A program made the position numbers and the translations under genes. Below are positions 7,662-44,776 of a stretch of DNA of 64,000 nt, one piece after another. The notes under the pieces are model-generated. The model ran no database searches. It had not been told where the DNA came from and worked only from the letters and a program-made list of their open reading frames with translations. This stretch comes from Acidobacteriota bacterium (GTDB lineage Bacteria; Acidobacteriota; Vicinamibacteria; Vicinamibacterales; 2-12-FULL-66-21), in NCBI GenBank assembly GCA_016184105.1, contig JACPDI010000047.1, positions 62,001 through 126,000 of the forward strand. The letters run 5' to 3'. Within the stretch, counting starts at the first letter, position 1; the number at the start of each line of letters is the position of its first letter.

Positions 7662-8636
7662 ATGGATACAGCCACCGCCTACATTGAGCGTCTGCGCCCG
7701 GCCGGCGGCAAGCGGTCAGGGAAGCGCGACCTGATCGTGAATGTTTTCCTGCGGCAGGAAGGGCACCTCAGTGCGGACGATCTGGTGGACCTCATCCGGC
7801 GAGAGGACCACAAGATCAGCCGCGCGACGGTGTACCGCACGCTGCAGTGGATGGTGGACGCGGGCATCGCGCGCAAGGTCGATTTCGGCGAGGGGCGCTT
7901 CCGCTTCGAGCACTCCTACCGGCACCCGCGGCACTTCCATCTGATCTGCAAGAGCTGCAACCAGTCGTCGGAGTTTCTCAGCTCCGACATCGAGGCGCTG
8001 CTCGAGGAGGTGGCCGCCGCCCGTAATTTCTCCGCGCGCCAGAGCGTGCTGCAGATTTACGGTACGTGCGAGTCGTGCCGCACCGGCCGCCGGCAGGAGG
8101 CGCCGCAGGGGGCGCCGACCGAGCTGCTGTTCGCCCGCGATGCGCTGCGCATTGCCATCGCCACCGAGCGATCCGGGCTCGAGTTCTATACCCGCGCCGC
8201 CCGGATGACGAAGGACGCGCGCGGCCGGCGCGTGTTCGAGAAGCTCGCCGAGGAAGAGAAACACCACCTGGCCACGCTCGAGGCGCGCTACCGCCAGCTG
8301 CTCGCGCAGGACCCGCAGCTCGACTCGCGGCCGACGTTCCTCTTCTTCAAGGGAGCGGCCAACGGCCTGTTCGCGGCCGGCACCGACCAGCTCGCGCGCG
8401 GCGGCGTGAACGATCGCCAGGCGCTCATGATCGGCATCCGCTGCGAGCGGGGATCGCACAAGTTCTTCAAGCGGTACGGCGAGCGGTTCGAGGACTCGGA
8501 AGGCAAGCAGATCTTTCTCGAGTTCGCAGACGAGGAGCGGCAGCATCTCGATCTGCTCATCCGCGAATACCGCGCGCTGGTCGCGCGCGCCAGCAAGCGG
8601 AAGGCGCGACGCCGCACGCCGCGCGCCACCGCGTGA
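7662..8636 (+). CDS. Fur-family regulator fused to a rubrerythrin-like di-iron domain
   Basis: The 324-residue protein joins two normally separate domains. Residues about 15-145 are a Fur/PerR winged helix (ISRATVYRTLQWMVDAGIA) followed by a dimerisation domain with RHPRHFHLICKSCN and a CESC pair; Cys96, Cys99, Cys136 and Cys139 fit a structural zinc site. Residues about 155-310 form a ferritin-like four-helix domain with Glu169, the ExxH motif EKHH (199-202), Glu262 and a second ExxH motif ERQH (292-295), as expected for a rubrerythrin di-iron site. The tail is very basic. A plausible job is a DNA-binding peroxide or iron sensor with its own di-iron sensing or detoxifying module; this is inference. 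Its TGA overlaps the next GTG. Confidence 0.87.
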   Translation: MDTATAYIERLRPAGGKRSGKRDLIVNVFLRQEGHLSADDLVDLIRREDHKISRATVYRTLQWMVDAGIARKVDFGEGRFRFEHSYRHPRHFHLICKSCNQSSEFLSSDIEALLEEVAAARNFSARQSVLQIYGTCESCRTGRRQEAPQGAPTELLFARDALRIAIATERSGLEFYTRAARMTKDARGRRVFEKLAEEEKHHLATLEARYRQLLAQDPQLDSRPTFLFFKGAANGLFAAGTDQLARGGVNDRQALMIGIRCERGSHKFFKRYGERFEDSEGKQIFLEFADEERQHLDLLIREYRALVARASKRKARRRTPRATA

Positions 8637-17317: not shown

Positions 17318-17344
17318 ACGTGCGGGTGCGTGAGAGAATCTCTC

Positions 17345-19618: not shown

Positions 19619-20143
19619 CTAAGGCAGCACCCTCACGAACCCGAACATCCCGTCGTTGACGAAGTGCGGGAGCACCCCGCAAATGACGAGGTGCGTCCCC
19701 GGATTGTGGAACTGCACCACTTCCACCCGGTCCTGCGGCTGCAGGCTCGGATCGAGCCCCCGGTAGATGCGGTTGTTCGGATCGTCAATCAGTGGCGGTC
19801 CCGGAGGGGCGGTGACCGGTCTGACCAGGCTGGTGTTGATGTCGGACGGCTGCGTCCCCGCGGAGTACACCAGCACGTGGTGGAACCCGCCAATGACGAA
19901 GTTCACGGTCCCCCCAACCTTGATCGTCGTCTCGTGTGGAGTCAGCTGGTGCCCGTTGCGCGTCCTGTCGTTCAGGTTGGGAAACCTGTCGAGCGGCGGA
20001 TCCGTGCGCCAGGACCCGAAGCTGACCGTGGCGTTGGCCAGCGGTCCCTCCAGGGGAGAGTGGTCGTGCCCCCGGGCGGCGGCGAGCGGTGTTACCAGTC
20101 CGGTCGCGAGCACCGACGTCACGAACGTTCGTCGTTCCATCAT
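19619..20143 (-). CDS. Exported cupredoxin-like copper protein
   Basis: The protein of about 174 residues starts at MMERRTFVTSVLATG, a twin-arginine-like export signal. The mature domain looks like a type-1 copper cupredoxin: a histidine in VIGGFHHVLVYS and the C-terminal loop CGVLPHFVNDGM, giving the Cys-x4-His-x4-Met ligand spacing. It should act in periplasmic electron transfer or copper binding. It is the third gene after the TonB receptor and PepSY protein on the same strand. An intercistronic hairpin (20153-20175) lies against the GGAGG ribosome-binding site and could tune translation. Confidence 0.75.
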   Translation of the reverse strand: MMERRTFVTSVLATGLVTPLAAARGHDHSPLEGPLANATVSFGSWRTDPPLDRFPNLNDRTRNGHQLTPHETTIKVGGTVNFVIGGFHHVLVYSAGTQPSDINTSLVRPVTAPPGPPLIDDPNNRIYRGLDPSLQPQDRVEVVQFHNPGTHLVICGVLPHFVNDGMFGFVRVLP

Positions 20144-20152
20144 TTCGCCCCT

Positions 20153-20261: not shown

Positions 20262-20273
20262 GTAAGCGCTTAC
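20262..20273. other. LacI-operator-like palindrome GTAAGCGCTTAC
   Basis: A perfect 12-bp palindrome with central CG overlaps the TAA stop of the PepSY gene (20270-20272) and lies about 120 bases upstream of the cupredoxin start. It matches the general shape of LacI-family operators. No LacI-type regulator is present in the window. Confidence 0.3.
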
Positions 20274-21454
20274 GTCCGACGCGGCGGGCTGCCGCACCTG
20301 GTCCGGGGGGCGAACGGCCAAGGCGGCGCCAGCCTCCATAACCGCTTCCGAATCGTCCGGTTCCACCAGACCACAACGCCGGACGCGGCGAGCACCGCCA
20401 TCGCGAAGCCGACGATGAACCACAGCACCCCGCTCAGGGCGCCCGCGAAGCGCCCGCCGTGGAGGATGCCTAACCATCGGATCGCGCGGTCCCCTACAGG
20501 ACGACCGGCGTATCGGTCTATGCGCACCACCTCCCCCGTGGCCGGATGGAGAAATACCACATCTGCAAACGCCTGGATGCGCTCACCCTCGCCGAGCATG
20601 AGCGCCCGCACCGGCTGCGTGGAACCCGCCGGCAGCTGGAGCGTGTGGACACGTTTGTGCGGCACCGCGGCACGGGCTGCCGCGAGCAGCGTCTCGATCC
20701 GCGCCGGCGGTCGACCGGCGGCGTCCGCAAGATGCTGCTGCGGCTCGGGCGGGCTCACCGGCAACACCGCCGCGATCGGCGTCCGGAACCACAGCGGCCA
20801 GGTGTGATACACGCCCGTGATGGTGATGAGCAGCGTGAGCGGCAGCAGCCAGATGCCCGTCGCGCCGTGCAGATCCCACCATCGCCGCGGCCACGGGGCG
20901 CTCCAGTCGATCCGCAACCCTCTGCCCCAGAGACCGCGGCCGCGCCACCAGATGACGATTCCGGTGACGCACAGCAGCGTGACGCTAAGGCCCCCGATCC
21001 CGTTCACGACGCGGCCCGTGCGGCCGGACAACAGGTTATTATGAAGATCCTCGAGAAACCGCCACCCGCTGTTTCGCCGCGTGATGACCCGGCTGATCTC
21101 GCCCGTGACCGGATGCACCTCCGCGAATGCCCATTGACCACGGTTCAGGAGGAAACCGCCGTACGGCCCGCCGGGCCGCTCCGGGACCACCACCGAGGCC
21201 GCGCGAAAGCCCGGAAGCGCGGCGCGGAGTGCACGCAGGGCCTCGTCGGGCCCGACGGGCAGCTCTCCGCGCGCGACATCGGCGTGCGGCACAGGCGGCT
21301 CCAACAGATCGTGCAGCATGAGCAGGCTGCCGGTGACGCTGGCCACGACGAGGTACAACGCCGTCAGAACGCCCGCCCAGAGGTGCAGCTGGAAGAACCA
21401 GTGGCGGCCGCGCCACTGGCGCGGCCTGTCAAGTATCTGCTCCCAGACCGTCAT
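20270..21454 (-). CDS. PepSY-associated transmembrane protein (siderophore/iron reductase-like)
   Basis: The 394-residue inner-membrane protein has four main hydrophobic segments: FFQLHLWAGVLTALYLVVA near the N-terminus, GGLSVTLLCVTGIVIWW, WLLPLTLLITITGVYHTW and VLWFIVGFAMAVLAASGVVVW. PepSY-like extracytoplasmic domains lie between them. Conserved histidines in the helices (HLWAG, DLHNN, DLHGATG, ILHGG) fit b-type heme ligands. Relatives are encoded beside TonB receptors and reduce or release imported ferric chelates. It directly follows the TonB receptor gene (5 bases) and precedes the cupredoxin, so it belongs to one operon under the composite promoter at 24.05 kb. Confidence 0.87.
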   Translation of the reverse strand: MTVWEQILDRPRQWRGRHWFFQLHLWAGVLTALYLVVASVTGSLLMLHDLLEPPVPHADVARGELPVGPDEALRALRAALPGFRAASVVVPERPGGPYGGFLLNRGQWAFAEVHPVTGEISRVITRRNSGWRFLEDLHNNLLSGRTGRVVNGIGGLSVTLLCVTGIVIWWRGRGLWGRGLRIDWSAPWPRRWWDLHGATGIWLLPLTLLITITGVYHTWPLWFRTPIAAVLPVSPPEPQQHLADAAGRPPARIETLLAAARAAVPHKRVHTLQLPAGSTQPVRALMLGEGERIQAFADVVFLHPATGEVVRIDRYAGRPVGDRAIRWLGILHGGRFAGALSGVLWFIVGFAMAVLAASGVVVWWNRTIRKRLWRLAPPWPFAPRTRCGSPPRRT

Positions 21455-21459
21455 GCGTC

Positions 21460-23838
21460 TCAGAACTGGATGTTGAGACCGGCGGAGACGACAACCCCCG
21501 GATCGCGCTGTGTGCCGGCCACGCGCCGGGCGCTCCCGTCCGGACTGATGATTGTGCGATCGAACCCGAGATCGCGCTGGTTCAACAGGTTTTCGACCCG
21601 TGTGAACAGACCCCAGCGCGAGGAGGCACTCCAGGCGATCGCCGCGTTTAACTTGCCGAAGCCGCCAAACCGCGTGACCACGACATCGTCGTTGAGCCGC
21701 TGTTCCGACAGGCCGCCATCGTCGTAGATCCCGTAGACACTGGCCGCGAGCCGCCTGTGGAGATCGATGTGAGTGCCAAAGCCGGCCACGTAGTTCGGCA
21801 GCGGCGCGAAACGGAGATCGACGTTCGAGGCGCTCGGATTCGTGCTGTCGTCGCGGTAGCTGCGCAGCCACGTGAGGGACGCGAACGGGCGAAGCCTCCA
21901 GACACGCCACTCGGTCCACATCTCGACCCCGCGCGTCCGCGCTGCGTCGTAGAACGGGATCCCCATGCCGGTGTTGCCGAAGTTGAACAGGTCGGACTCA
22001 CGACTCTTGAATACCGCGACGCGGACGGTGCCCGAACCATGCGAGCCGATCGAGACCGGCTGTTCAGCGCCGATTTCAACCGTGTCGGTGGTCGACGGGC
22101 GGAGTCCAACCGCAGGATCCCGGCGAATGAACTGCCCGTTTCCCCACCACAGGTAAAACGCCTTGTTCAACTTGTAACCCGTGGACCACGAGCCGAAGAG
22201 GCGCGTGCGTGCACCCGGGATGACCCACGCGGCTCCCGCATCGTAAGCGGCGCGCGGTTTGTTGCGGAGTCCGTTGTCGATGTTGGCCACGCGAACGCCG
22301 CCGTTCAGCGTGACCGCGCCGATCTCGAACGAGTTGCGCCAGTAGACGGCCTGCTCGCGGAACGAAAAGGCGACCGGCTGTGTCGTGATGTCCTCGAACC
22401 GATCCCACGTCAGGTCGGCGCCGCTGGAACCGCTGTAGGTCACCCCGCCCGCGAGCGGGACGCGCCACTGAATGTTGGCGAACAGCCGGGCGGCACGCTG
22501 GGGCCGATTGCGGCGGGAGACGCCGGTCGCCACGCCGCCAGCGGCGTCTTCAACGCGGTTCTCGTGAAACCAGTTTCCCGTGATGCCGACACCAGCACCG
22601 AAGTTCTCGGACTTGCGCCAGTCGTAGCGGGATGCCAGGAAGTAGTTGGTCTTGTCCGTGTGGTAGTCCTGGCGGATCAGCCGGCCAGCCTGCGTGCTTT
22701 CCTGGAAGTAGTCGTGACGCTCGCCACCGCCGATGTACATTGTCTCCCAGCGTCCGCGGGTGGATGTCTGCACGCCGAGTTTCATGAGACCCGACGCCAG
22801 CCGCAGGCCTTCGATCGGTCGTGGAAACGTGCTGTACGCGCTTCCGTAATCCGCCAGCGAGCTTTGCCCGGCGACGTAGTAATCGACAGGCCCCTTTCCG
22901 CCACCGGTATCGCCCATGAAGATGCCTTCGCCGAGGCTGAGCATTTCCACGCGAAAAGAACTTGCGGGGTTCGCACCGGACCCGCGCTTCAAGTAGTTGC
23001 GGATCACGCCGCCTGACGCCTGGCCGTATGAGACGCCGAGGCCGCCCGTGGCGATACTGAGCGATCGAATCGCGATGGATGGAATGATGGAGGAGAATCC
23101 GGCGGTGTAGCCGCCGTCTTCCGCCGATACGGGGGTGATGTCAATAGACGGATACTGATCGACGGTTTCGACAGTGCCCCAAGCGTGACCGCCGCGGATA
23201 TGCGTGGGAACGCTGAACCTGTCGCGGCCTCCTGCGCCAGCATTCATCACGCCGGGCAGCAGGCGCAAGGCGGCGTAGTTCGCGACCGGGTTCAGACTCG
23301 TGAGTACGTGCCCATCAACTGACGTCACCGACTTGGTCGTGTCGTAACTCCGATCCACGCGGCGGGCCAGATCCTCCTCCCCGCCAGCGAGAACGGTCAC
23401 GGTCGCCGTGACAGGTGCGATGGCCAGCCGCAGGCGAACCGTGCGTTGTTCGGCCGTGCTGATCGATCGCGAGATCGGGGCAAAGCCCCGCGCTGCGACC
23501 CGCACCGTCGCGTTGCCGGACGGCAACCCTTCGAATCTGAACGTGCCATCGGGATTCGTTCGTTGCGTTCGGCCGTGGGTTCCGGCGACTTCAATTACAA
23601 CTTCAGCGCCGGGAATCGGTCGATCCTGGTCGTCGACAACCGTACCGACGACGACATGGGTTGGAGCCGCGGAAACGTCCGACCCGGCTGACGCGCTCGG
23701 GGAGGTCGACAACAGGGCCAACATCACCGAAGCGACCCATGCGGTTGCGATTGAGGGAAATGGAAAATTGCAGCGAAATGCCAGGGAGTGGCCGGGCTTG
23801 CATTCATGCCCGGGCGAAGAACAGACGGCTCGCTTCAT
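21460..23838 (-). CDS. TonB-dependent outer membrane receptor with carboxypeptidase-like N-domain
   Basis: The 792-residue protein has a long N-terminal export region (signal around residues 28-52), a carboxypeptidase-regulatory-like beta-sandwich (VVVGTVVDDQDRPIPGAEV to about residue 145), a plug domain (PVANYAALRLLPGVMN, THIRGGHAWGT) and a C-terminal barrel ending GLNIQF. It should import a substrate such as an iron or copper chelate with energy from TonB. The ATG at 23838 is preceded by AGGAGGG. Transcription probably starts about 210 bases upstream at a promoter with two operator-like palindromes. The 5' leader is opposite a possible small RNA. Confidence 0.9.
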   Translation of the reverse strand: MKRAVCSSPGHECKPGHSLAFRCNFPFPSIATAWVASVMLALLSTSPSASAGSDVSAAPTHVVVGTVVDDQDRPIPGAEVVIEVAGTHGRTQRTNPDGTFRFEGLPSGNATVRVAARGFAPISRSISTAEQRTVRLRLAIAPVTATVTVLAGGEEDLARRVDRSYDTTKSVTSVDGHVLTSLNPVANYAALRLLPGVMNAGAGGRDRFSVPTHIRGGHAWGTVETVDQYPSIDITPVSAEDGGYTAGFSSIIPSIAIRSLSIATGGLGVSYGQASGGVIRNYLKRGSGANPASSFRVEMLSLGEGIFMGDTGGGKGPVDYYVAGQSSLADYGSAYSTFPRPIEGLRLASGLMKLGVQTSTRGRWETMYIGGGERHDYFQESTQAGRLIRQDYHTDKTNYFLASRYDWRKSENFGAGVGITGNWFHENRVEDAAGGVATGVSRRNRPQRAARLFANIQWRVPLAGGVTYSGSSGADLTWDRFEDITTQPVAFSFREQAVYWRNSFEIGAVTLNGGVRVANIDNGLRNKPRAAYDAGAAWVIPGARTRLFGSWSTGYKLNKAFYLWWGNGQFIRRDPAVGLRPSTTDTVEIGAEQPVSIGSHGSGTVRVAVFKSRESDLFNFGNTGMGIPFYDAARTRGVEMWTEWRVWRLRPFASLTWLRSYRDDSTNPSASNVDLRFAPLPNYVAGFGTHIDLHRRLAASVYGIYDDGGLSEQRLNDDVVVTRFGGFGKLNAAIAWSASSRWGLFTRVENLLNQRDLGFDRTIISPDGSARRVAGTQRDPGVVVSAGLNIQF

Positions 23839-23853
23839 AACGCACCCTCCTGC

Positions 23854-23882
23854 TTGCGCGCGACGAAGCGTGGCCGTACACT
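23854..23882 (+). promoter_or_regulatory. Plus-strand promoter for a possible antisense RNA
   Basis: TTGCGC (23854-23859) and TACACT (23877-23882) are spaced by exactly 17 bp on the plus strand. No plus-strand gene follows; the next plus-strand signal is a strong terminator at 23952-23985. Confidence 0.45.
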
Positions 23883-23888
23883 ACCGGC

Positions 23889-23985
23889 GTCGGACGCTCT
23901 CATGCGCGCAGCGCGTGAACGGTTCTCTCCAGGACCGAGCGGTTCGACTTACCCGCCGTGTGTGGCGCACGCGGCGGGTTTTTTT
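23889..23985 (+). ncRNA. Candidate small RNA antisense to the TonB-receptor leader
   Basis: A transcript starting near 23889 and ending in the T-tract at 23985 would be about 97 bases long and has no convincing open frame. Its 3' end is a textbook intrinsic terminator. It would be fully complementary to the 5' leader of the TonB-receptor mRNA, about 50 bases upstream of the start codon, so it could act in cis. The evidence is the promoter and terminator only. Confidence 0.4.
23952..23985 (+). terminator. Strong intrinsic terminator (plus strand)
   Basis: CCCGCCGTGTG and CACGCGGCGGG pair over 11 positions (one G-T) around a TGGCG loop and are followed by seven T residues. It points along the plus strand although no plus-strand protein gene precedes it. 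Confidence 0.7.
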
Positions 23986-24028
23986 GTTGTGGAACGAGTG
24001 TCGATGCGTTCTATGAGAGCAACTTCAT

Positions 24029-24086
24029 AAACTTGAGACTCGTTCTCATTTTGTGCAGGATATCTCGGACCAATTTGGTCGGTCAA
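24029..24086 (-). promoter_or_regulatory. Composite promoter of the TonB-receptor operon with two operator-like palindromes
   Basis: On the minus strand TTGACC (24086-24081) is followed 18 bp later by TATCCT (24062-24057). The spacer holds the inverted repeat CGGACC-N5-GGTCGG (24066-24082), of TetR-operator type. A perfect TGAGA-N5-TCTCA palindrome (24034-24048), flanked by AAAA and AGTTT and similar to a Fur box, covers the predicted transcript start. The same arrangement recurs at 44722-44776. Confidence 0.6.
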
Positions 24087-24162: not shown

Positions 24163-25059
24163 TCAGAACCAGGTACGCACGCCGAGCGCGAGCTTCGCGC
24201 CGCCGACGTCTCGGCCCTTTTCGCGGGCGAAGTCCGCTGTTCCAAAGAGCTTCCGGTCCCACACCACGCCGACGTACGGTGCCAGCTCGCGACGGATCTC
24301 GTAGCGGAGCCGCACGCCGGCTTCAATGGAGCTGAAGCCTGCGCCGATGGCACGCTCCGGATCGTCCTTTCCGTACACCTCCAGTTCGACGAGCGGTTGA
24401 AGAATGAGCCGGTTCGTGAGCAGGAGGTCGTACTCCGCCTCGAATCGCGCGTGCGTGCGGCCACCGGCGCCGACATAACCGGTCGCTTCGATCTCGAACC
24501 AGTACGGCGCCAGCCCCTGCACGCCCGCCGCCGCCCACGTCTGCGGATCGCCCGGCCGGAAATCCTGGCGCACGCCGGCGACGAAGTCCCACCACCGCGA
24601 GACGCTCCGCCCCCACAGCGCATGCACGAACGCGTTCGTGACGCGTCCGTCCTCGCTTTCACCTTCGGCGCGGATCCAGAGGCGGTCGACGTCGCCGCCG
24701 ATCCACGACGTGTTCTCGAGGTTGCCGCCACCCGATCCTCCACCCTGCCACTCGAGCTGTTCGAACAGCACGAAGGCCGTGAGCGTCCGATCGTGGACGG
24801 CGTGTCCGCCGAGCGCCGGCGGGAACGCGGCGGCACGGTCTGCATCGGTGATCGGCGGGATCGGATCTTTCGGGCCCTGCTTCGGCGCGTCGGCCGGCTT
24901 CGCGTGAGCCGAATGGTCGTCTGGCGGCTTTGGCTGCGGCTGCTGCGCGGGCGGGGGTGGAGGGTGCCCGGTGTGCGGCGGCGTCTGGGCAGCCCCGGCA
25001 GGCACCATCAGGAGCCACGCGGTGAAGACGAGGACAGGGAAGTGCCGCGCCCGGATCAT
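24163..25059 (-). CDS. copB: Copper resistance protein B (outer membrane)
   Basis: The 298-residue precursor has a signal peptide ending near AGAAQT, a histidine- and proline-rich linker (residues about 25-70) that could bind copper, and then a CopB/PcoB beta-barrel. Typical blocks are LFEQLEWQ, LWIRAEGE, DFVAGVRQDFRPG and FSSIEAGVRLRYEIRRE, ending VRTWF. CopB is an outer-membrane protein that works with the multicopper oxidase CopA in periplasmic copper tolerance. Its ATG overlaps the copA stop (ATGA), confirming the usual copA-copB order. Confidence 0.92.
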   Translation of the reverse strand: MIRARHFPVLVFTAWLLMVPAGAAQTPPHTGHPPPPPAQQPQPKPPDDHSAHAKPADAPKQGPKDPIPPITDADRAAAFPPALGGHAVHDRTLTAFVLFEQLEWQGGGSGGGNLENTSWIGGDVDRLWIRAEGESEDGRVTNAFVHALWGRSVSRWWDFVAGVRQDFRPGDPQTWAAAGVQGLAPYWFEIEATGYVGAGGRTHARFEAEYDLLLTNRLILQPLVELEVYGKDDPERAIGAGFSSIEAGVRLRYEIRRELAPYVGVVWDRKLFGTADFAREKGRDVGGAKLALGVRTWF

Positions 25060-26777
25060 TCCTCCACCCTCACTTCCCGGAACATGCCGGACTCCATGTG
25101 ATAGAGCAGGTGGCAGTGAAATGCCCAGCGGCCGAGCGCGTCCGCCCGCACGCGAACGCTGCGCTTCGTCCCCGGCTGGATGTCCACCGTGTGCTTCCGC
25201 ACGATGAACTCACCGGCCTCGTTCTCGAGGTCGCTCCACATGCCGTGCAGGTGCATCGGGTGCGACATCATCGTGTCGTTGACGAGGACGACGCGCAGGC
25301 GCTCGCCGTATTTGAGTCGAACGGGTTGCGCGTCAGAGAACTTGATCCCGTCAATCGACCACGCGAACTTCTCCATGTGCCCGGTGAGGTGCAACTCGAT
25401 CGTGCGGCTCGGCTCCCGGCCGTCCGGGTCCTCGAAGATGCTGCGAAGATCCGCGTAGGTGAGCACGCGCCGCCCGTTCCCGCGCAGCCCGACGCCCGGA
25501 TCGTCCAACCGCGGCATTGGCATGGTGGCCTGCATATCCACAAGCGGATTCCCGTTCTCGCTTTCAGGGTGCGCCTGCATCGGCACGTCGTGTCCCGGCG
25601 TGTTGTGTCCCGCCATCTCTCCATGCCCCATGTCCGCCATCGTCAGCAGTTGCGGTTCGTCCAGGCGAGGCACCTCCGCGCGCAGCCCGCGACGGACCGC
25701 AAGCGTCCCCGCGGCGTAGCCAGTCCGATCGGCCGATTGGGCGAAGATCGTGAAGGCCTCCGAGCCCGATGGTTCGACGATCACGTCGTAGACCTCGGCA
25801 GTCGCGATGCGGAACTCGTCGACCTCCACGGGGTGCACGTACTGCCCGTCGGCGGCCACGACCGTCATCTTCAGCCCCGGGATGCGGACGTCGAAGTACG
25901 ATTGCGCCGACCCGTTGATGAAGCGCAGCCGGACCCGCTCGCCCGGCTCGAACAGCCCCGTCCAGTTTTCGTTTGGCGCGAGGCCGTTCATCAAGTACGT
26001 GTACGTGTAGGCGCTGAGGTCCGAGAGGTCGGTTGGATTCATCCGCATCCGGCCCCACATCCTGCGGTCTGCCAGCGTCGCGGAGAGCCCCCGCTCCCGC
26101 ACATCGCGGAAGAGATCGACCATCGTCCGCTTGTTGAAGTTGAAGTAGTCGGACTGCTTCTTCAACTTGGCGAAGACCGCGCGCGGATCCTCGTCCGTCC
26201 AATCCGAAAGCAAGACGACGTGCTCGCGGTCGTGCTGGACGGGAGAGGGTTGCCGCGGCTCGATGATGATTGCGCCGTAGACGCCGAGCTGCTCGTCGAA
26301 CCCGGAATGGCTGTGATACCAGTACGTGCCGTTCTGCCGAACCGTGAACCGGTACTCGTACGACTCACCAGGCCGGATCCCGCCGAAACTCAAGCCGGGA
26401 ACGCCATCCATGTTGGCGGGCAGCAGGATGCCGTGCCAATGAATCGAGGCTTCGTCCTCTGAAAGGGTATTCGCGACGCGCAGCGTTACGGTTTCGCCTT
26501 CACGCCACCGGAGCGTCGGTGCCGGGAGCGACCCGTTGACCGTGTAGGCGGTGCGGGGCCGGCCGGTGATGTTGACCGGCGTCTCGCCGATACGAAGGTC
26601 GAAGTTGGTACCTGAAAGTTCGATGGTCGGCTGCCGCGCCGGCGCCTGCGCCCACACCCGCGGCGTGCGCCAGAGGCCGAGGCCCGCGACCGCCCCGCTC
26701 GCGGCGAGTCCTTTCACGAACGTTCGGCGGGACGGCGCGGCGGGATCGGCGCGATGAGTGCGGTGAGACGGCATCAT
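25056..26777 (-). CDS. copA: Multicopper oxidase, copper resistance protein A
   Basis: The protein of about 573 residues begins with a twin-arginine signal (SRRTFVKGLAASG) and is exported folded to the periplasm. Copper-ligand motifs occur in order: SIHWHGILLP, YWYHSHSGFDEQ, HPMHLHGMW and FHCHLLYHMESGM, covering the type 1, 2 and 3 centres. A methionine-rich stretch (MADMGHGEMAGHN region) before the third domain fits cuprous-ion binding. I start it at the ATG at 26777 (or 26774), because the upstream in-frame extension would precede the signal. It is followed by copB and convergent with nothing nearby. Confidence 0.94.
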   Translation of the reverse strand: MMPSHRTHRADPAAPSRRTFVKGLAASGAVAGLGLWRTPRVWAQAPARQPTIELSGTNFDLRIGETPVNITGRPRTAYTVNGSLPAPTLRWREGETVTLRVANTLSEDEASIHWHGILLPANMDGVPGLSFGGIRPGESYEYRFTVRQNGTYWYHSHSGFDEQLGVYGAIIIEPRQPSPVQHDREHVVLLSDWTDEDPRAVFAKLKKQSDYFNFNKRTMVDLFRDVRERGLSATLADRRMWGRMRMNPTDLSDLSAYTYTYLMNGLAPNENWTGLFEPGERVRLRFINGSAQSYFDVRIPGLKMTVVAADGQYVHPVEVDEFRIATAEVYDVIVEPSGSEAFTIFAQSADRTGYAAGTLAVRRGLRAEVPRLDEPQLLTMADMGHGEMAGHNTPGHDVPMQAHPESENGNPLVDMQATMPMPRLDDPGVGLRGNGRRVLTYADLRSIFEDPDGREPSRTIELHLTGHMEKFAWSIDGIKFSDAQPVRLKYGERLRVVLVNDTMMSHPMHLHGMWSDLENEAGEFIVRKHTVDIQPGTKRSVRVRADALGRWAFHCHLLYHMESGMFREVRVEE

Positions 26778-26867
26778 AATCCCCAGCTGCAGCGAGCATT
26801 GGACAGCAAGGATGATGCCTGTGCGCGCGCCGGCCGCCGGGGTTCCCGGCGGCCGGCGCACGTGCGC

Positions 26868-40354: not shown

Positions 40355-41434
40355 ATGGCTACCGAAGTCACTGAGGCGGCGGTCCTGTCGGCGTTGCGGA
40401 GCGTCAAGGACCCCGACCTGCATCGAGATATCGTCGCCCTCGGGTTCATCAAGAAGCTGTCCATCAGCGGCGGTCGTGTCGATTTCACGATCGAGCTGAC
40501 CACGCCCGCGTGTCCTGTGAAGGACAAGATGCGCGACGAGGCGAAAGCCGCGGTCTCGGCCGTTCCGGGCGTGACCGAGGTCGAGGTGCGGATGTCCGCG
40601 CAGGTTCGTGCGGGCGGCGCGGACTTCAGCCGGGCGGGGATCCCCGGCGTCAAGAACATCATCGCGGTCGGCGCTGGAAAAGGGGGCGTCGGCAAGACGA
40701 CCGTCGCAGTGAACCTCGCGGCGGCGCTGGCGAGATGCGGCAGCCAGGTCGGCCTGATCGACGGCGACATCTACGGCCCGAACGTGCCGATGATGCTGGG
40801 GCTGAACACGCAGCTCACGACCGACGGCCAGAAGATCGTGCCGGCCGAGCAGTATGGCATCCACGTCGTGTCGATCGGCTTCCTCACCCAGGACGATTCG
40901 CCGGTCATCTGGCGCGGGCCGATGCTGCACGGCGTCATCCAGCAGTTCTTTCGCGAGGTACGGTGGCCGGCGCTCGACTACCTCATCGTCGACATGCCGC
41001 CGGGCACCGGCGACGTGGCGCTCAGCCTCAGCCAGGTGGTTCCGGTGACCGGCGCCGTGCTCGTGACGACGCCGCAGAACGTGTCGCTGGCCGACACGCG
41101 GCGGGCCGTGCGGATGTACCAGAAGCTGAACATCCCGACGCTCGGGCTCATCGAGAACATGAGCCACTTCGTGTGCCCGAACTGCCATCACGAGAGCGAC
41201 ATCTTCGGGAAAGGGGGCGGCGAGGGACTCGCGAAGGCGATGAGCGTCCCGTTCATCGGCCGCGTGCCGATCTACGAGCCAATTCGGCGCGGTGGCGACT
41301 CGGGAATGCCGCTGGTGCTGGCCGAGCCCGATTCACCGCCCGCGCGCGCGTTCATGGCCGCGGCCGAGCAGATGGCCGCGCAGATCTCGATCGCGAGCTA
41401 CAAGCGCCCGATCCCGCTCACGCCGGTCAGCTAG
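40355..41434 (+). CDS. mrp: Mrp/ApbC-type Fe-S cluster carrier ATPase
   Basis: The 359-residue protein has an N-terminal MIP18/DUF59 domain (residues 5-85, LRSVKDPDLHRDIVALGFI and TTPACPVKD) and a SIMIBI-class P-loop ATPase domain with GAGKGGVGKTTVAVNL, LIDGDIYGPNVPMMLG and IVDMPPGTGDVALS. The cluster-binding CPNC motif is seen in HFVCPNCHHES. It stores and transfers Fe-S clusters in the cytoplasm. Its TAG and the TAG of the convergent apbE gene share one CTAG. Confidence 0.95.
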   Translation: MATEVTEAAVLSALRSVKDPDLHRDIVALGFIKKLSISGGRVDFTIELTTPACPVKDKMRDEAKAAVSAVPGVTEVEVRMSAQVRAGGADFSRAGIPGVKNIIAVGAGKGGVGKTTVAVNLAAALARCGSQVGLIDGDIYGPNVPMMLGLNTQLTTDGQKIVPAEQYGIHVVSIGFLTQDDSPVIWRGPMLHGVIQQFFREVRWPALDYLIVDMPPGTGDVALSLSQVVPVTGAVLVTTPQNVSLADTRRAVRMYQKLNIPTLGLIENMSHFVCPNCHHESDIFGKGGGEGLAKAMSVPFIGRVPIYEPIRRGGDSGMPLVLAEPDSPPARAFMAAAEQMAAQISIASYKRPIPLTPVS

Positions 41435-42429
41435 GAGCGAACCGGTCGGCGCGCGCTGGGGAAGCGCTGACGGAACGCGTCCGAGGCCCGCACGCGCACG
41501 CGGTTCCCCGAGGGAATGAGAAAGCAGGCGGAGACACCCTGCGCGTTCGCCCAGCGCAGGCCTTGCTCCGGCCCCATCACGTACAGCGCGGTCGAGAGGA
41601 TGTCCGCGACGAGGCCGCGTTCGTTCCAGACCACGACCGAGCCGCCGAATGTCGCCGGCGTGCCGGTGCGAGGGTCGATGATGTGTCCGACGCGCGCGCG
41701 GCCCGCGCGCTGATCGCGCTGCGACCCGCCGCTGGTCGCGATCGATCCGCTCGTCAGCCTGACGTCGAACAGCCTCCGGGACCGGTGTCGCGGATGCGCG
41801 ACGGCGACGCGCCAGCCGCCTGGCGGGCTGACGCCCCACACGCCGACCTGGCCCCCCAGATCGATGAGCCACCCCGCCGAGGGAACGGCCGCGGCAGACG
41901 CCCGATCGATCGCCTCTCCTTTTCCGAAGCCTCCCGAGTCCAGGCGCCCGTGCTCCGGACGGCGGATCGTGCACGCGGACCTCTCGAAGCTCCACGCGGA
42001 GAAGCGCGATGCCGGCAGGGCCGCGATGATTTCCTCGTGCGACGGCACGCGCGCGGTCGTCTGCACGCCCCAGATGTCGAGGAGCGGCCCCGCCGCGGGG
42101 TCGAAGGTGCCGCCGGTGCGGCGCGTCCAGTCCGAGAGGAGGCCCATCAGCTCGCAGAGTGCCGGCGGCACGGCGGCGATCTCGCCGGGGCGCGCACGGT
42201 TCAGCCGATTGAATGGCGTGTCGCGCCAGGTGCTCAGGTCCTGCTCGGTGTCTTCGAGAACGCGAAGGAGCGCGTCCAGCGCGGAGAGCGCCTCGGGACG
42301 GGACGCCGCGCGCGCGACAAGAGTGGCGCGCGTGCCCATCAGGTATGCCTCGCGGCTCGCTTCGGCCGACGCGACCGGCTGCGCCAGCGCGAGCACGAGC
42401 GTCTGAGCGAGCGCGAGGGCCGGGATCAC
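41431..42429 (-). CDS. apbE: FAD:protein FMN transferase
   Basis: The 332-residue precursor has a hydrophobic N-terminal export segment (ending near PVASAEA). ApbE covalently attaches FMN from FAD to a threonine of extracytoplasmic FMN-binding proteins. Family landmarks are YLMGTRATL near the N-terminus, FNRLNR, DSGGFGKGEAIDRAS, LIDLGGQVGVWG, the metal-binding SGSIATSG and HIIDPRTGTPAT, and a late DILSTALYVMGPE. It is the last gene of a four-gene operon that also encodes an FMN-binding target protein. The start overlaps the preceding stop (ATGA). Confidence 0.94.
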   Translation of the reverse strand: MIPALALAQTLVLALAQPVASAEASREAYLMGTRATLVARAASRPEALSALDALLRVLEDTEQDLSTWRDTPFNRLNRARPGEIAAVPPALCELMGLLSDWTRRTGGTFDPAAGPLLDIWGVQTTARVPSHEEIIAALPASRFSAWSFERSACTIRRPEHGRLDSGGFGKGEAIDRASAAAVPSAGWLIDLGGQVGVWGVSPPGGWRVAVAHPRHRSRRLFDVRLTSGSIATSGGSQRDQRAGRARVGHIIDPRTGTPATFGGSVVVWNERGLVADILSTALYVMGPEQGLRWANAQGVSACFLIPSGNRVRVRASDAFRQRFPSARRPVRS

Positions 42430-42887
42430 GCGGCCGGCCGGATCGGTTCGGCTCGTCGCTGCCGGCGCTGGTGGCGCAGGCTTAACGCGATGTGCGCGGC
42501 GTACATGATGAGGAACAGCGTGCCGCTTGCCACGTGCGCCACCATCGTGGCGAAATGCAGCCGTTCAGACGTGAGGACCTGGAGCAGATATCCGGATGCG
42601 ACCATCACGACGAATGTCCAGACCGACACGAGGCCCGACCGGCGGTTGTACGGCTGGCCCCCGTCGATCTTCGCCGTCACGTGCGCGGACCAGATGATGC
42701 CGAACATCAGCACGAGCGCGGGGGCCGACAGGATGTGCACGTACAGCATGTACGGCTGCCACGGATGGTTCACGACGGCGAAGGGATCGCTCGCCTCCAT
42801 GAAGTACTTCATCCACAGATAGGCGAGGCCGCTCGCCCCGACCATCACGCTGAGCGCCGCGAGCAGGCGCCTCTGGAGAGCGGTCAT
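42426..42887 (-). CDS. Four-helix membrane protein, probable b-type cytochrome
   Basis: The 153-residue protein has four hydrophobic helices. Histidines sit within or near them: QPYMLYVHILS, IIWSAHVTAK, FATMVAHVASG and MYAAHIALSL. Two pairs on helices could bind two hemes b and move electrons from the quinone pool to the periplasmic side. Such DUF4405-like or cytochrome-b561-like proteins occur with FMN-binding proteins and ApbE in flavin-based extracytoplasmic electron transfer. Heme binding is inferred from these histidines only. Stop-start overlaps couple it to both neighbours. Confidence 0.7.
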   Translation of the reverse strand: MTALQRRLLAALSVMVGASGLAYLWMKYFMEASDPFAVVNHPWQPYMLYVHILSAPALVLMFGIIWSAHVTAKIDGGQPYNRRSGLVSVWTFVVMVASGYLLQVLTSERLHFATMVAHVASGTLFLIMYAAHIALSLRHQRRQRRAEPIRPAA

Positions 42888-43423
42888 CGCTGGAGCTCCT
42901 TGCTCAGCACACCGTCGATCGCCAGGACGCGCCGGACGGCTTCAGTCACCGCCCTGGCCGTCAGCGTGGCTCCGGCGATGGGCCGGATCGCGCGGTGCAG
43001 CCGCAGGTCGTCGTCGAGCGGGCGCCCCTGGTGCTGTTTGGCCCAGGCGTGCGGGGCACGGTATTCGGGAGGTTCGAGGAACGCCGTGACGTCGATCCTC
43101 TTTACGCGTCCCCCCGCATCGAGCGAGATCAGCAGCGACTCTTTTTTCGTCCGCACGACGTGCGTATCGACGTAGGCGCGCCCGACAGCCTGCCCGTCTT
43201 TCGTCGCGACGTAGCGGGCCACGAGCGCGCTGGGAACGCCGACCCCGGCGAGGGACGCCGCCTGGCGCTGCTGCTCGGCGGTCAGGAACACCTGCTCGGC
43301 CTTGATGACCGCGCCGGGAAACGCTGCCGCCAGCGCTTCGTCCCGCGTGATGCCGGCCGGACCGGCCGCGGCAGATGCCGTGGCCAGACCGAGCACGCCG
43401 ATCGCGAGCAGGACGTCGCGCAT
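42884..43423 (-). CDS. FMN-binding domain protein with ApbE flavinylation motif
   Basis: The 179-residue precursor has a signal peptide (cleavage near ASAAAGPAG). The mature part is an FMN-binding domain like that of NqrC and RnfG. Near the C-terminus PIAGATLTARAV supplies the AGAT motif, with Thr153 as the likely site of covalent FMN attachment by the ApbE of the same operon. It would pass electrons in the periplasm, probably from the membrane b-type protein. The start overlaps the porin stop (TGATG). Confidence 0.85.
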   Translation of the reverse strand: MRDVLLAIGVLGLATASAAAGPAGITRDEALAAAFPGAVIKAEQVFLTAEQQRQAASLAGVGVPSALVARYVATKDGQAVGRAYVDTHVVRTKKESLLISLDAGGRVKRIDVTAFLEPPEYRAPHAWAKQHQGRPLDDDLRLHRAIRPIAGATLTARAVTEAVRRVLAIDGVLSKELQR

Positions 43424-44703
43424 CAGAACGCGTAGCCGAGCGCGATGTTGAACTGGTTGCGGCCCGTCCGCGCGCCGTTGGTCACCCACTGGTAATCGGT
43501 CTTGACCACGACGCCGGTCACCGGGCGCAGCTCGAGGCCCAGCGTCTGCCAGGTAATGCGCTTCGCCGGATCGGCGGTGAAGCCCGCTGGGACTTCGGCG
43601 TGCGTGTTGACTCGCTCGAACCGGTAGTAGGGCGTCAGCGCGATCGTGGTGCTCCGGCGGTTCAACACGTTGTAACCCGCCTGCGCGTATCCCCCTTCCA
43701 TGACGCTGCCGATGCCGGCGGCGCCCGTGAGCTTCAACGCCCCGTTGAGCGCGGCGGCATCGTCGATTGACGCGCGGGCGTACAGCGCGCGCACGTCGAG
43801 GCCGCGCATCTGCGCCTGGCCGTGCACCTCGCCGATCGTCGTTCCCGCGTCCACCTCGCCGACCTGGTTCTGCCCGGATGCACCCGCGTAGAGGCTGCCG
43901 CCGACCAACACGCCGTCGAGCGGCGCGAGGTCGGCGCGGCCCACGAAGGCGAAATTTTCCGCGATGGCCTCCTTGCCGGACTGGCGCCCGCCCCGGATGC
44001 CGTTCGCGCTGAAGCCGCGCGCGTTGAGGCCAGTCACGACGTAGGCGCGGTAGCTCACGGGGCCACGGCTCCCCAGTACGCCGGCGCCGTTCTCGCGCCA
44101 CGTGGACGGCACGATCCGCCGTTCCGTCTCCGGCCGGCCCGTGCCGAAGTACACCGTCGGCTCGTGGAACTCGTTGATCAGGCCCATCGGCAGCAGCAGG
44201 AGCCCGCCGCGCAGCGTGAGGTCGTTGCGCACGCGGTAATCGACGTAGGCGAACTCCACACCGACCTCTTCGCCGCCATGCTCGAACTCGATCTCCGAGT
44301 TGAACAGGAATCGATCGTTGAAGCGATAGCCCGCGTAGAGCACCGCGCGCAGGAAGTCGAACCGCGACGATGCGGGGCTCGCGGCGCCGTTCTCCAGGGT
44401 GTCGTCCAGTTTCTGGTAGACGATCTCGCCGTACCCGGCGAACGAGACCCCTTGCTTCTTGCGGTAGATGGCCGCCGCCGACGGGGCGACGCCAAGGCTG
44501 CGGCGCTGCGCCTCGGTCAACTCTTCTTCCGGCTCCCCGCTGCGCAGCCGCTCCAGTTCCTGGGCGAGTACGTCGAGCCGCCGGCGCAGCTCGTCGATCT
44601 CGCTTTGTGCGGGCTGCTGCCGGGCGGGCGAAACGGTGGGGACGGTGGGGGATGACGGTGGGGTGGTGAACGTCAACAACCCCGCAACGAGGTACTCAAA
44701 CAT
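43423..44703 (-). CDS. Outer membrane porin (OprO/OprP-like) with N-terminal coiled coil
   Basis: The 426-residue precursor has an N-terminal export segment, a proline-rich part, then a short coiled coil (IDELRRRLDVLAQELERLRSG) as in OprO/P and related trimeric porins. The rest is a beta-barrel with typical alternating strands (VSFAGYGEIVYQKLDD, FLFNSEIEFEHGGE) and ends QFNIALGYAF with a C-terminal phenylalanine. It heads the FMN-protein/cytochrome/ApbE operon. The promoter at 44722-44776 carries the same two palindromes as the TonB-receptor promoter, so an inorganic or metal-complex substrate is likely. Confidence 0.85.
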   Translation of the reverse strand: MFEYLVAGLLTFTTPPSSPTVPTVSPARQQPAQSEIDELRRRLDVLAQELERLRSGEPEEELTEAQRRSLGVAPSAAAIYRKKQGVSFAGYGEIVYQKLDDTLENGAASPASSRFDFLRAVLYAGYRFNDRFLFNSEIEFEHGGEEVGVEFAYVDYRVRNDLTLRGGLLLLPMGLINEFHEPTVYFGTGRPETERRIVPSTWRENGAGVLGSRGPVSYRAYVVTGLNARGFSANGIRGGRQSGKEAIAENFAFVGRADLAPLDGVLVGGSLYAGASGQNQVGEVDAGTTIGEVHGQAQMRGLDVRALYARASIDDAAALNGALKLTGAAGIGSVMEGGYAQAGYNVLNRRSTTIALTPYYRFERVNTHAEVPAGFTADPAKRITWQTLGLELRPVTGVVVKTDYQWVTNGARTGRNQFNIALGYAF

Positions 44704-44721: not shown

Positions 44722-44776
44722 TGAGAACCGATCTCAAGTTTAGGCAAGTGTATATCCGACCAAATAGGTCGGTCAA
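44722..44776 (-). promoter_or_regulatory. Composite promoter of the porin/FMN/ApbE operon
   Basis: On the minus strand TTGACC (44776-44771) precedes TATACA (44754-44749) by 16 bp. The spacer carries a perfect CCGACC-N5-GGTCGG inverted repeat (44756-44772). A perfect TGAGA-N5-TCTCA palindrome (44722-44736) lies over the predicted transcript start. Both elements are those of the 24.05 kb promoter; the Fur-like box is in the opposite orientation. Confidence 0.6.

Follow-up and report, generated by a model that had tools for sequence, protein, structure and literature searches.

The region analyzed here (hereafter the window) is a 64-kb stretch of the genome of an Acidobacteriota bacterium (assembly GCA_016184105.1, contig JACPDI010000047.1, positions 62,001-126,000 of the forward strand), and all coordinates below are window positions unless a contig or locus is named. 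Two minus-strand operons, A and B, are the focus of this study. Operon A encodes an outer-membrane TonB-type receptor with CarboxypepD_reg and Plug domains (21460..23838; Plug slightly under its cut-off), a reductase-like PepSY_TM protein (20270..21463) and a last gene without a Pfam match (19619..20152), whose product the first-pass annotation of this DNA had described as cupredoxin-like. Operon B begins with a gene for a porin-like outer-membrane protein (43423..44703), followed by those for an FMN_bind protein (42884..43432), a small membrane protein resembling cytochrome b561 (42426..42887; under the curated cut-off) and an ApbE flavin transferase (41431..42429). Directly upstream of operon A, on the same strand, lie genes for a copA-type multicopper oxidase and copB (24163-26861), an adjacency absent from the first-pass annotation. 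They end 77 bp from promoter A, and iron and copper functions may therefore be linked, or read through, at this junction.

The promoters of operons A and B share one order of elements: TTGACC, a GACC-N5-GGTC dyad within the spacer, a −10 element, and TGAGA-N5-TCTCA at the start site. On the minus strand, promoter A (24086-24034) reads TTGACC GACCAAATTGGTC CGAGATATCCTGCACAAAA TGAGAACGAGTCTCA and promoter B (44776-44722) reads TTGACC GACCTATTTGGTC GGATATACACTTGCCTAAACT TGAGATCGGTTCTCA. Promoter A is composed of a −35 TTGACC (24081..24086), a putative Rrf2 (SUF regulator)-type operator, CCGACC-AAATT-GGTCCG, in the −35/−10 spacer (24066..24082; one mismatch), a −10 TATCCT (24057..24062) and a Fur-like box, TGAGAACGAGTCTCA, near the inferred start site (24034..24048). 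The corresponding parts of promoter B are a −35 TTGACC (44771..44776), a perfect putative operator of the same type, CCGACC-TATTT-GGTCGG (44756..44772), a −10 TACACT (44747..44752) and the Fur-like box TGAGATCGGTTCTCA (44722..44736). In both promoters the best placement of the −10 is TAnnnT, 18 bp after TTGACC.

This order of elements had been recognized in the first-pass annotation, along with half-sites that are perfect in the second copy and nearly so in the first, and we find both as described. The operators had also been called identical; the architecture is indeed the same, but the copies themselves are merely similar, differing in the central N5, in one half-site base and in the spacing between GGTC and the Fur-like box (19 vs. 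21 bp). The two boxes also face opposite ways with respect to the promoter, and the AAAA...AGTTT flanks noted earlier, while present, match between the copies only when box B is read on the opposite strand.

Occurrence of the composite promoter

Loose forms of either half are as frequent in the 64-kb window as in shuffled sequence, so the window alone cannot decide whether the composite exceeds chance. We scanned the whole assembly (4.24 Mb, 69 contigs) and found TTGACCGACC-N5-GGTC-NGA, with 0 mismatches, only at promoters A and B; the same is true genome-wide of AAAATGAGA-N5-TCTCAAGTTT, which has opposite orientations relative to the two promoters. The genome has three copies of perfect CCGACC-N5-GGTCGG, in promoter B, in the promoter of a suf operon that begins with an rrf2 gene (suf-rrf2), and on contig C35. 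Exact TGAGA-N5-TCTCA occurs four times, in promoters A and B, at window position 17331, and ahead of an FTR1 iron permease gene, whose promoter bears an Rrf2-type site as well. The regulon of two operons originally proposed is hence too small, given that FTR1 and suf-rrf2 of the same genome bear related sites. By eye, the copy at 17331 lies just upstream of an apparent minus-strand tRNA gene. Elsewhere in this genome (C22:32245; L092 near 2244), a degenerate site, CCAAATAGGTCGGATATAGAGT, has a good −10 and lacks a Fur box.

Across the order Vicinamibacterales, the composite was found at 11 sites in 10 of 162 genomes, and a reversed-pattern control gave none. A looser pattern, in which the leading TT was not demanded, matched 38 contigs in the GTDB collection (84,980 species genomes), about one chance match being expected on a uniform-base estimate. 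All were titled Acidobacteria or Vicinamibacterales (one of them Luteitalea) except for a single “Cyanobacteria” MAG, which is probably a mislabelled member of the order. TT nevertheless preceded GACC in every one of the 38 contigs. TAnnnT lies exactly 18 bp after TTGACC in 36 of 38 distinct sites, a set that includes A and B. In these sites the N5 of the dyad is for the most part RAWTY, and the TGAGA box, counted from the initial T of TTGACC, begins after 34-49 bases, which puts it close to the inferred start site. A second box is present just upstream of the −35 in 13 of 40 sites.

The genes downstream of the composite include, order-wide, feoAB and those for TonB receptors, PepSY_TM proteins, and orthologues of the porin and the FMN_bind protein; a chorismate-binding enzyme, CbiX-type proteins and PQQ/Kelch-repeat proteins are further targets. 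Most of the genes under composite promoters across the order belong to iron uptake or reduction. The composite of the operon B promoter is kept in another family of the order, in which the first-gene proteins are 56% identical. Conservation ahead of feoAB, TonB, PepSY and porin/FMN genes argues for the earlier suggestion that two regulators jointly control an iron regulon.

A Fur-rubrerythrin fusion as candidate reader of the TGAGA box

A Fur box is a 7-1-7 inverted repeat of the TGATAATNATTATCA type. The boxes found here resemble Fur boxes in general in being 15-bp inverted repeats of 7-1-7 form with TGA/TCA ends at iron-uptake promoters, but differ from them in their consensus, TGAGACTNAGTCTCA, and in a 14-bp variant seen in some genomes. 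To our knowledge, the promoter sites bear no resemblance to a DtxR/IdeR box. Two Fur-family genes were detected in the genome, one of them PerR-like and adjoining katG. The other, the only non-PerR Fur found, is encoded in the window on the plus strand (7662..8636), and its 324-aa product is a fusion of a Fur domain (92 bits, curated cut-off 23.1) with a rubrerythrin-type domain that follows it. The fusion was found in 151 of the 162 genomes of the order, mostly at 65-84% identity, and its His, Glu and Cys positions, which are likely metal ligands, are conserved in 31 homologues. ExxH-type diiron ligands are visible in its C-terminal part.

We compared the distribution of the box with that of the fusion at 62 exact dyad sites. 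Of these, 55 have a −10, and the seven that lack one all lack the box too. At the 55 promoter-like sites the box (14 or 15 bp, at most one mismatch) is present in 49 of 49 cases in fusion-positive genomes and absent in three of six in genomes without a fusion match (Fisher P = 8e-4, kinship ignored), while its chance rate is 6 in 20,000 random windows of equal size. The three box-less genomes (G008, G010, and G011) all fall in the window's own family (f1), and the genes behind their sites encode TonB receptors. A small Rrf2 tree groups G002, G008, and G011 (support 0.95), and the box-less genomes probably form one clade; with a single family and probably a single clade involved, the joint absence of box and fusion may represent one loss event. 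In G008 (L289), a second Rrf2-type dyad, ATCCGACCGTTCTGGTCGGCTATT, is found where the Fur box would sit.

Gene content, FTR1 as a third iron target, and the lack of the box in f1 genomes without a fusion match all support the first-pass assignment of the box to Fur, and the order's Fur-rubrerythrin fusion is the Fur most likely to act there. We consider it unlikely, though less so than any of the alternatives below, that another Fur-family protein, e.g., the PerR-like one beside katG, reads the TGAGA box. The genome does encode two Fur-family proteins, and two incomplete genomes, G131 (85% complete) and G154 (94%), have kept the box with no fusion gene detected; on the other hand, the perR-katG upstream region has no TGAGA-type box, and box and fusion match are jointly absent from the f1 genomes with sites.

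A SUF-type Rrf2 regulator as candidate reader of the dyad, and the proposed control

The genome contains two clear Rrf2 genes. One of them (C40:29617-30024) opens the suf operon and is followed by SufA-type and SufB-type genes. Its product scores over the Rrf2 superfamily cut-off (121 vs. 73.3 bits) and under that of the SUF-regulator equivalog TIGR02944 (106 vs. 110.65 bits), and it is called SUF-type here on account of its gene position, not as a TIGR02944 member. It resembles the SUF regulator, IscR, and RirA models and has three cysteines (Cys93, Cys100, and Cys106), as expected for an Fe-S cluster. Homologues were found in 155 of the 162 genomes of the order; in two genomes, G015 (88% complete) and G132 (100%), promoter sites are present but a suf-type Rrf2 was not detected at E 1e-15. 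The second Rrf2 gene (contig C9; L089 5580-6014, plus strand) lies upstream of nitrate-reductase-like genes and is for that reason perhaps NsrR-like.

A de novo motif search of 89 suf-rrf2 promoters from other genomes gave GACT-N6-GTCG (35 promoters) and GACT-N5-GGTC (33 promoters) as the commonest spaced tetramer pairs, compared with at most 6 in shuffles. With the present genome included, [CG]GACY-N5-RGTC[CG] is found in 47 of 90 suf-rrf2 promoters, where 0.5 would be expected. The perfect CCGACC-N5-GGTCGG is not generally conserved in the suf promoters of the order, the de novo form being GGACT-N5-GGTCGG; the left half-site is mostly GGACT in suf promoters vs. CGACC in iron promoters. We then scored the window and further loci of this genome with a matrix built from the suf-rrf2 promoters, the present genome left out. 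Site B has the best score in the window and site A is the third-ranked place (its two strands stand 4th and 5th in the list), behind an unrelated place at 22365; the FTR1 promoter outscores site B, and both A and B score considerably lower than the suf training sites. The present suf-rrf2 promoter (C40; L088 about 8035-8090, minus strand) has two tandem Rrf2-type sites, the perfect palindrome and, just downstream, the suf-type site of the order.

Both dyads contain the GAC-N7-GTC palindromic core of IscR/RisR-type operators, and the motif is also present ahead of the regulator's own gene, in the suf-rrf2 operon. In Myxococcus xanthus, GAC-N7-GTC is the core of the RisR footprint, holo-RisR is reported to repress isc and suf, and the group to which RisR is assigned, IS6, includes Acidobacteria (PMC9973013). 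Based on the identity of the dyad motif with that of the suf-rrf2 promoters, we infer that the dyad is read by the SUF-type Rrf2 regulator.

The element is probably a dual-repressor iron promoter, in which the spacer holds a SUF-type Rrf2 operator and the start site a Fur box, each at a location that is classical for repression. As judged from sequence, the underlying promoter would be of the sigma-70 type, TTGACC-N18-TAnnnT, with the operator inside its spacer and the Fur box around its start, and the reader of the operator would be the IscR/RisR-like three-cysteine protein encoded at the head of the suf operon. With ample Fe-S clusters, the Rrf2 protein in its cluster-loaded form would cover the promoter, and with ample ferrous iron, Fur would cover the start site. 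Expression of the TonB/PepSY operon, the porin/FMN/cytochrome b/ApbE operon, and FTR1 would then need both repressors to be gone, and since both must leave, uptake would follow free iron and Fe-S status independently. The inter-site distance varies, which speaks against the Rrf2 and Fur proteins touching each other in a fixed way. A wider scheme, which we put forward tentatively and with clearly less confidence, would have the whole order rely on an Fe-S-sensing Rrf2 repressor and a Fur fused to a diiron rubrerythrin-like domain, with one clade having lost fusion and boxes and depending on the Rrf2 site alone; through the rubrerythrin-like domain, Fur's reading of iron could be altered by peroxide, oxygen or bound iron.

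The same two proteins could act in another way, with apo-Rrf2 activating while Fur represses. Apo-IscR is reported to activate fhu, iuc, and sit in Klebsiella pneumoniae (PMC4169559), and the dyad always occupies the same place relative to the −35 and −10; but the −35/−10 interval is the usual position of a repressor, RisR and the IscR of Rhodobacter are described as repressing from sites that overlap these elements (PMC9973013, PMC4618611), and the site in suf promoters directly follows an AT-rich TAAAAT/TAATAT stretch, possibly a −10. We therefore regard activation by apo-Rrf2 as improbable. Activation of the MerR type via a stretched spacer is not favored either, because the spacer measures 18 bp and not 19-20 bp.

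The first-pass annotation had placed a TetR-family repressor on GACC-N5-GGTC and Fur on the second box. TetR repressors commonly use short dyads in the promoter spacer, and the genome has 11 TetR-type matches. None of these 11 genes, however, is near any of the three perfect copies of the dyad, whereas the suf-rrf2 gene is; the motif emerges when suf-rrf2 promoters from other genomes are searched de novo, and the dyad core equals the footprinted RisR core. With the repeat matching the suf-type Rrf2 operator motif, a TetR reader is very unlikely. Finally, the view that the composite arose by chance or descent and has no role in regulation, although in line with the shuffle-like frequency of loose halves in the window, can practically be dismissed in view of the empty reversed-pattern control in 162 genomes, the confinement of matches to one order with strict −10 spacing and iron genes downstream, and the seven exact dyad sites that lack −10 and box alike.

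Related systems and the operon A leader

Rrf2 control of iron uptake, and its overlap with Fur, is already known in Proteobacteria. The dual-repressor promoter proposed here resembles in some of its parts the RisR system of M. xanthus, in which a three-cysteine Rrf2 (residues 92, 102, and 108 vs. 93, 100, and 106 here) is likewise encoded with suf genes and has an operator core, GAC-N7-GTC, that overlaps promoter elements; the reported targets are isc and suf, and the accessible part of that report describes no composite with a Fur box (PMC9973013). In Rhodobacter sphaeroides, as proposed here, an Fe-S-loaded Rrf2 protein, IscR, represses iron uptake genes (feoAB, exbBD-tonB) from sites, termed the Iron-Rhodo-box, that overlap or adjoin the −35/−10. 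Unlike the present case, that IscR has a single cysteine and a 19-bp motif, the accessible part of the account does not mention a paired Fur box, and Fur/Mur is not the master iron regulator (PMC4618611). Klebsiella and Caulobacter share with our proposal the action of IscR and Fur on overlapping iron genes; the accessible parts of these studies describe no fixed architecture of spacer operator and start-site box (PMC4169559, PMC11475020), and in Klebsiella, unlike here, apo-IscR activates (PMC4169559).

We know of no pairing of the RirA site with a Fur box at each promoter. RirA of Rhizobium and its relatives is an Rrf2 Fe-S repressor of iron uptake, like the regulator proposed here, but binds an IRO box (PMC6748827, PMC5863699).

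In the literature searched, which was largely open-access, we found no earlier description of the fixed double architecture or its conservation in an order of Acidobacteriota, no paper on a Fur-rubrerythrin fusion and no description of iron control in these Acidobacteriota; within the same literature, the likely use of the fusion as a regulator is new. Vicinamibacterales-group Acidobacteriota are common soil bacteria. The proposal provides them with a concrete regulon and a candidate for each regulator, would, outside Proteobacteria, couple iron import to Fe-S status at the level of individual promoters, and draws attention to a Fur-rubrerythrin fusion carried by nearly all genomes of the order (151/162).

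Close to its 5′ end, the leader of the TonB receptor gene (23839..23991, minus strand) has a conserved GC hairpin in which 8 of 10 pairs have changed in a compensatory manner, and a search against Rfam gave no family at gathering score. A second hairpin, around CATTNTA, is hardly better than shuffled flanks. The conserved leader could be a new cis-regulatory RNA. A structured leader of this kind, in which the GC hairpin is followed by GAACG and other conserved blocks, lies behind many composite promoters, and the conserved leader was also found in genomes without a Fur-like box. Similar leaders were seen at loci L049, L050, L056, L057, L060, L063, L067, L077, L081, L098, L099, L101, L269, L283, and L285.
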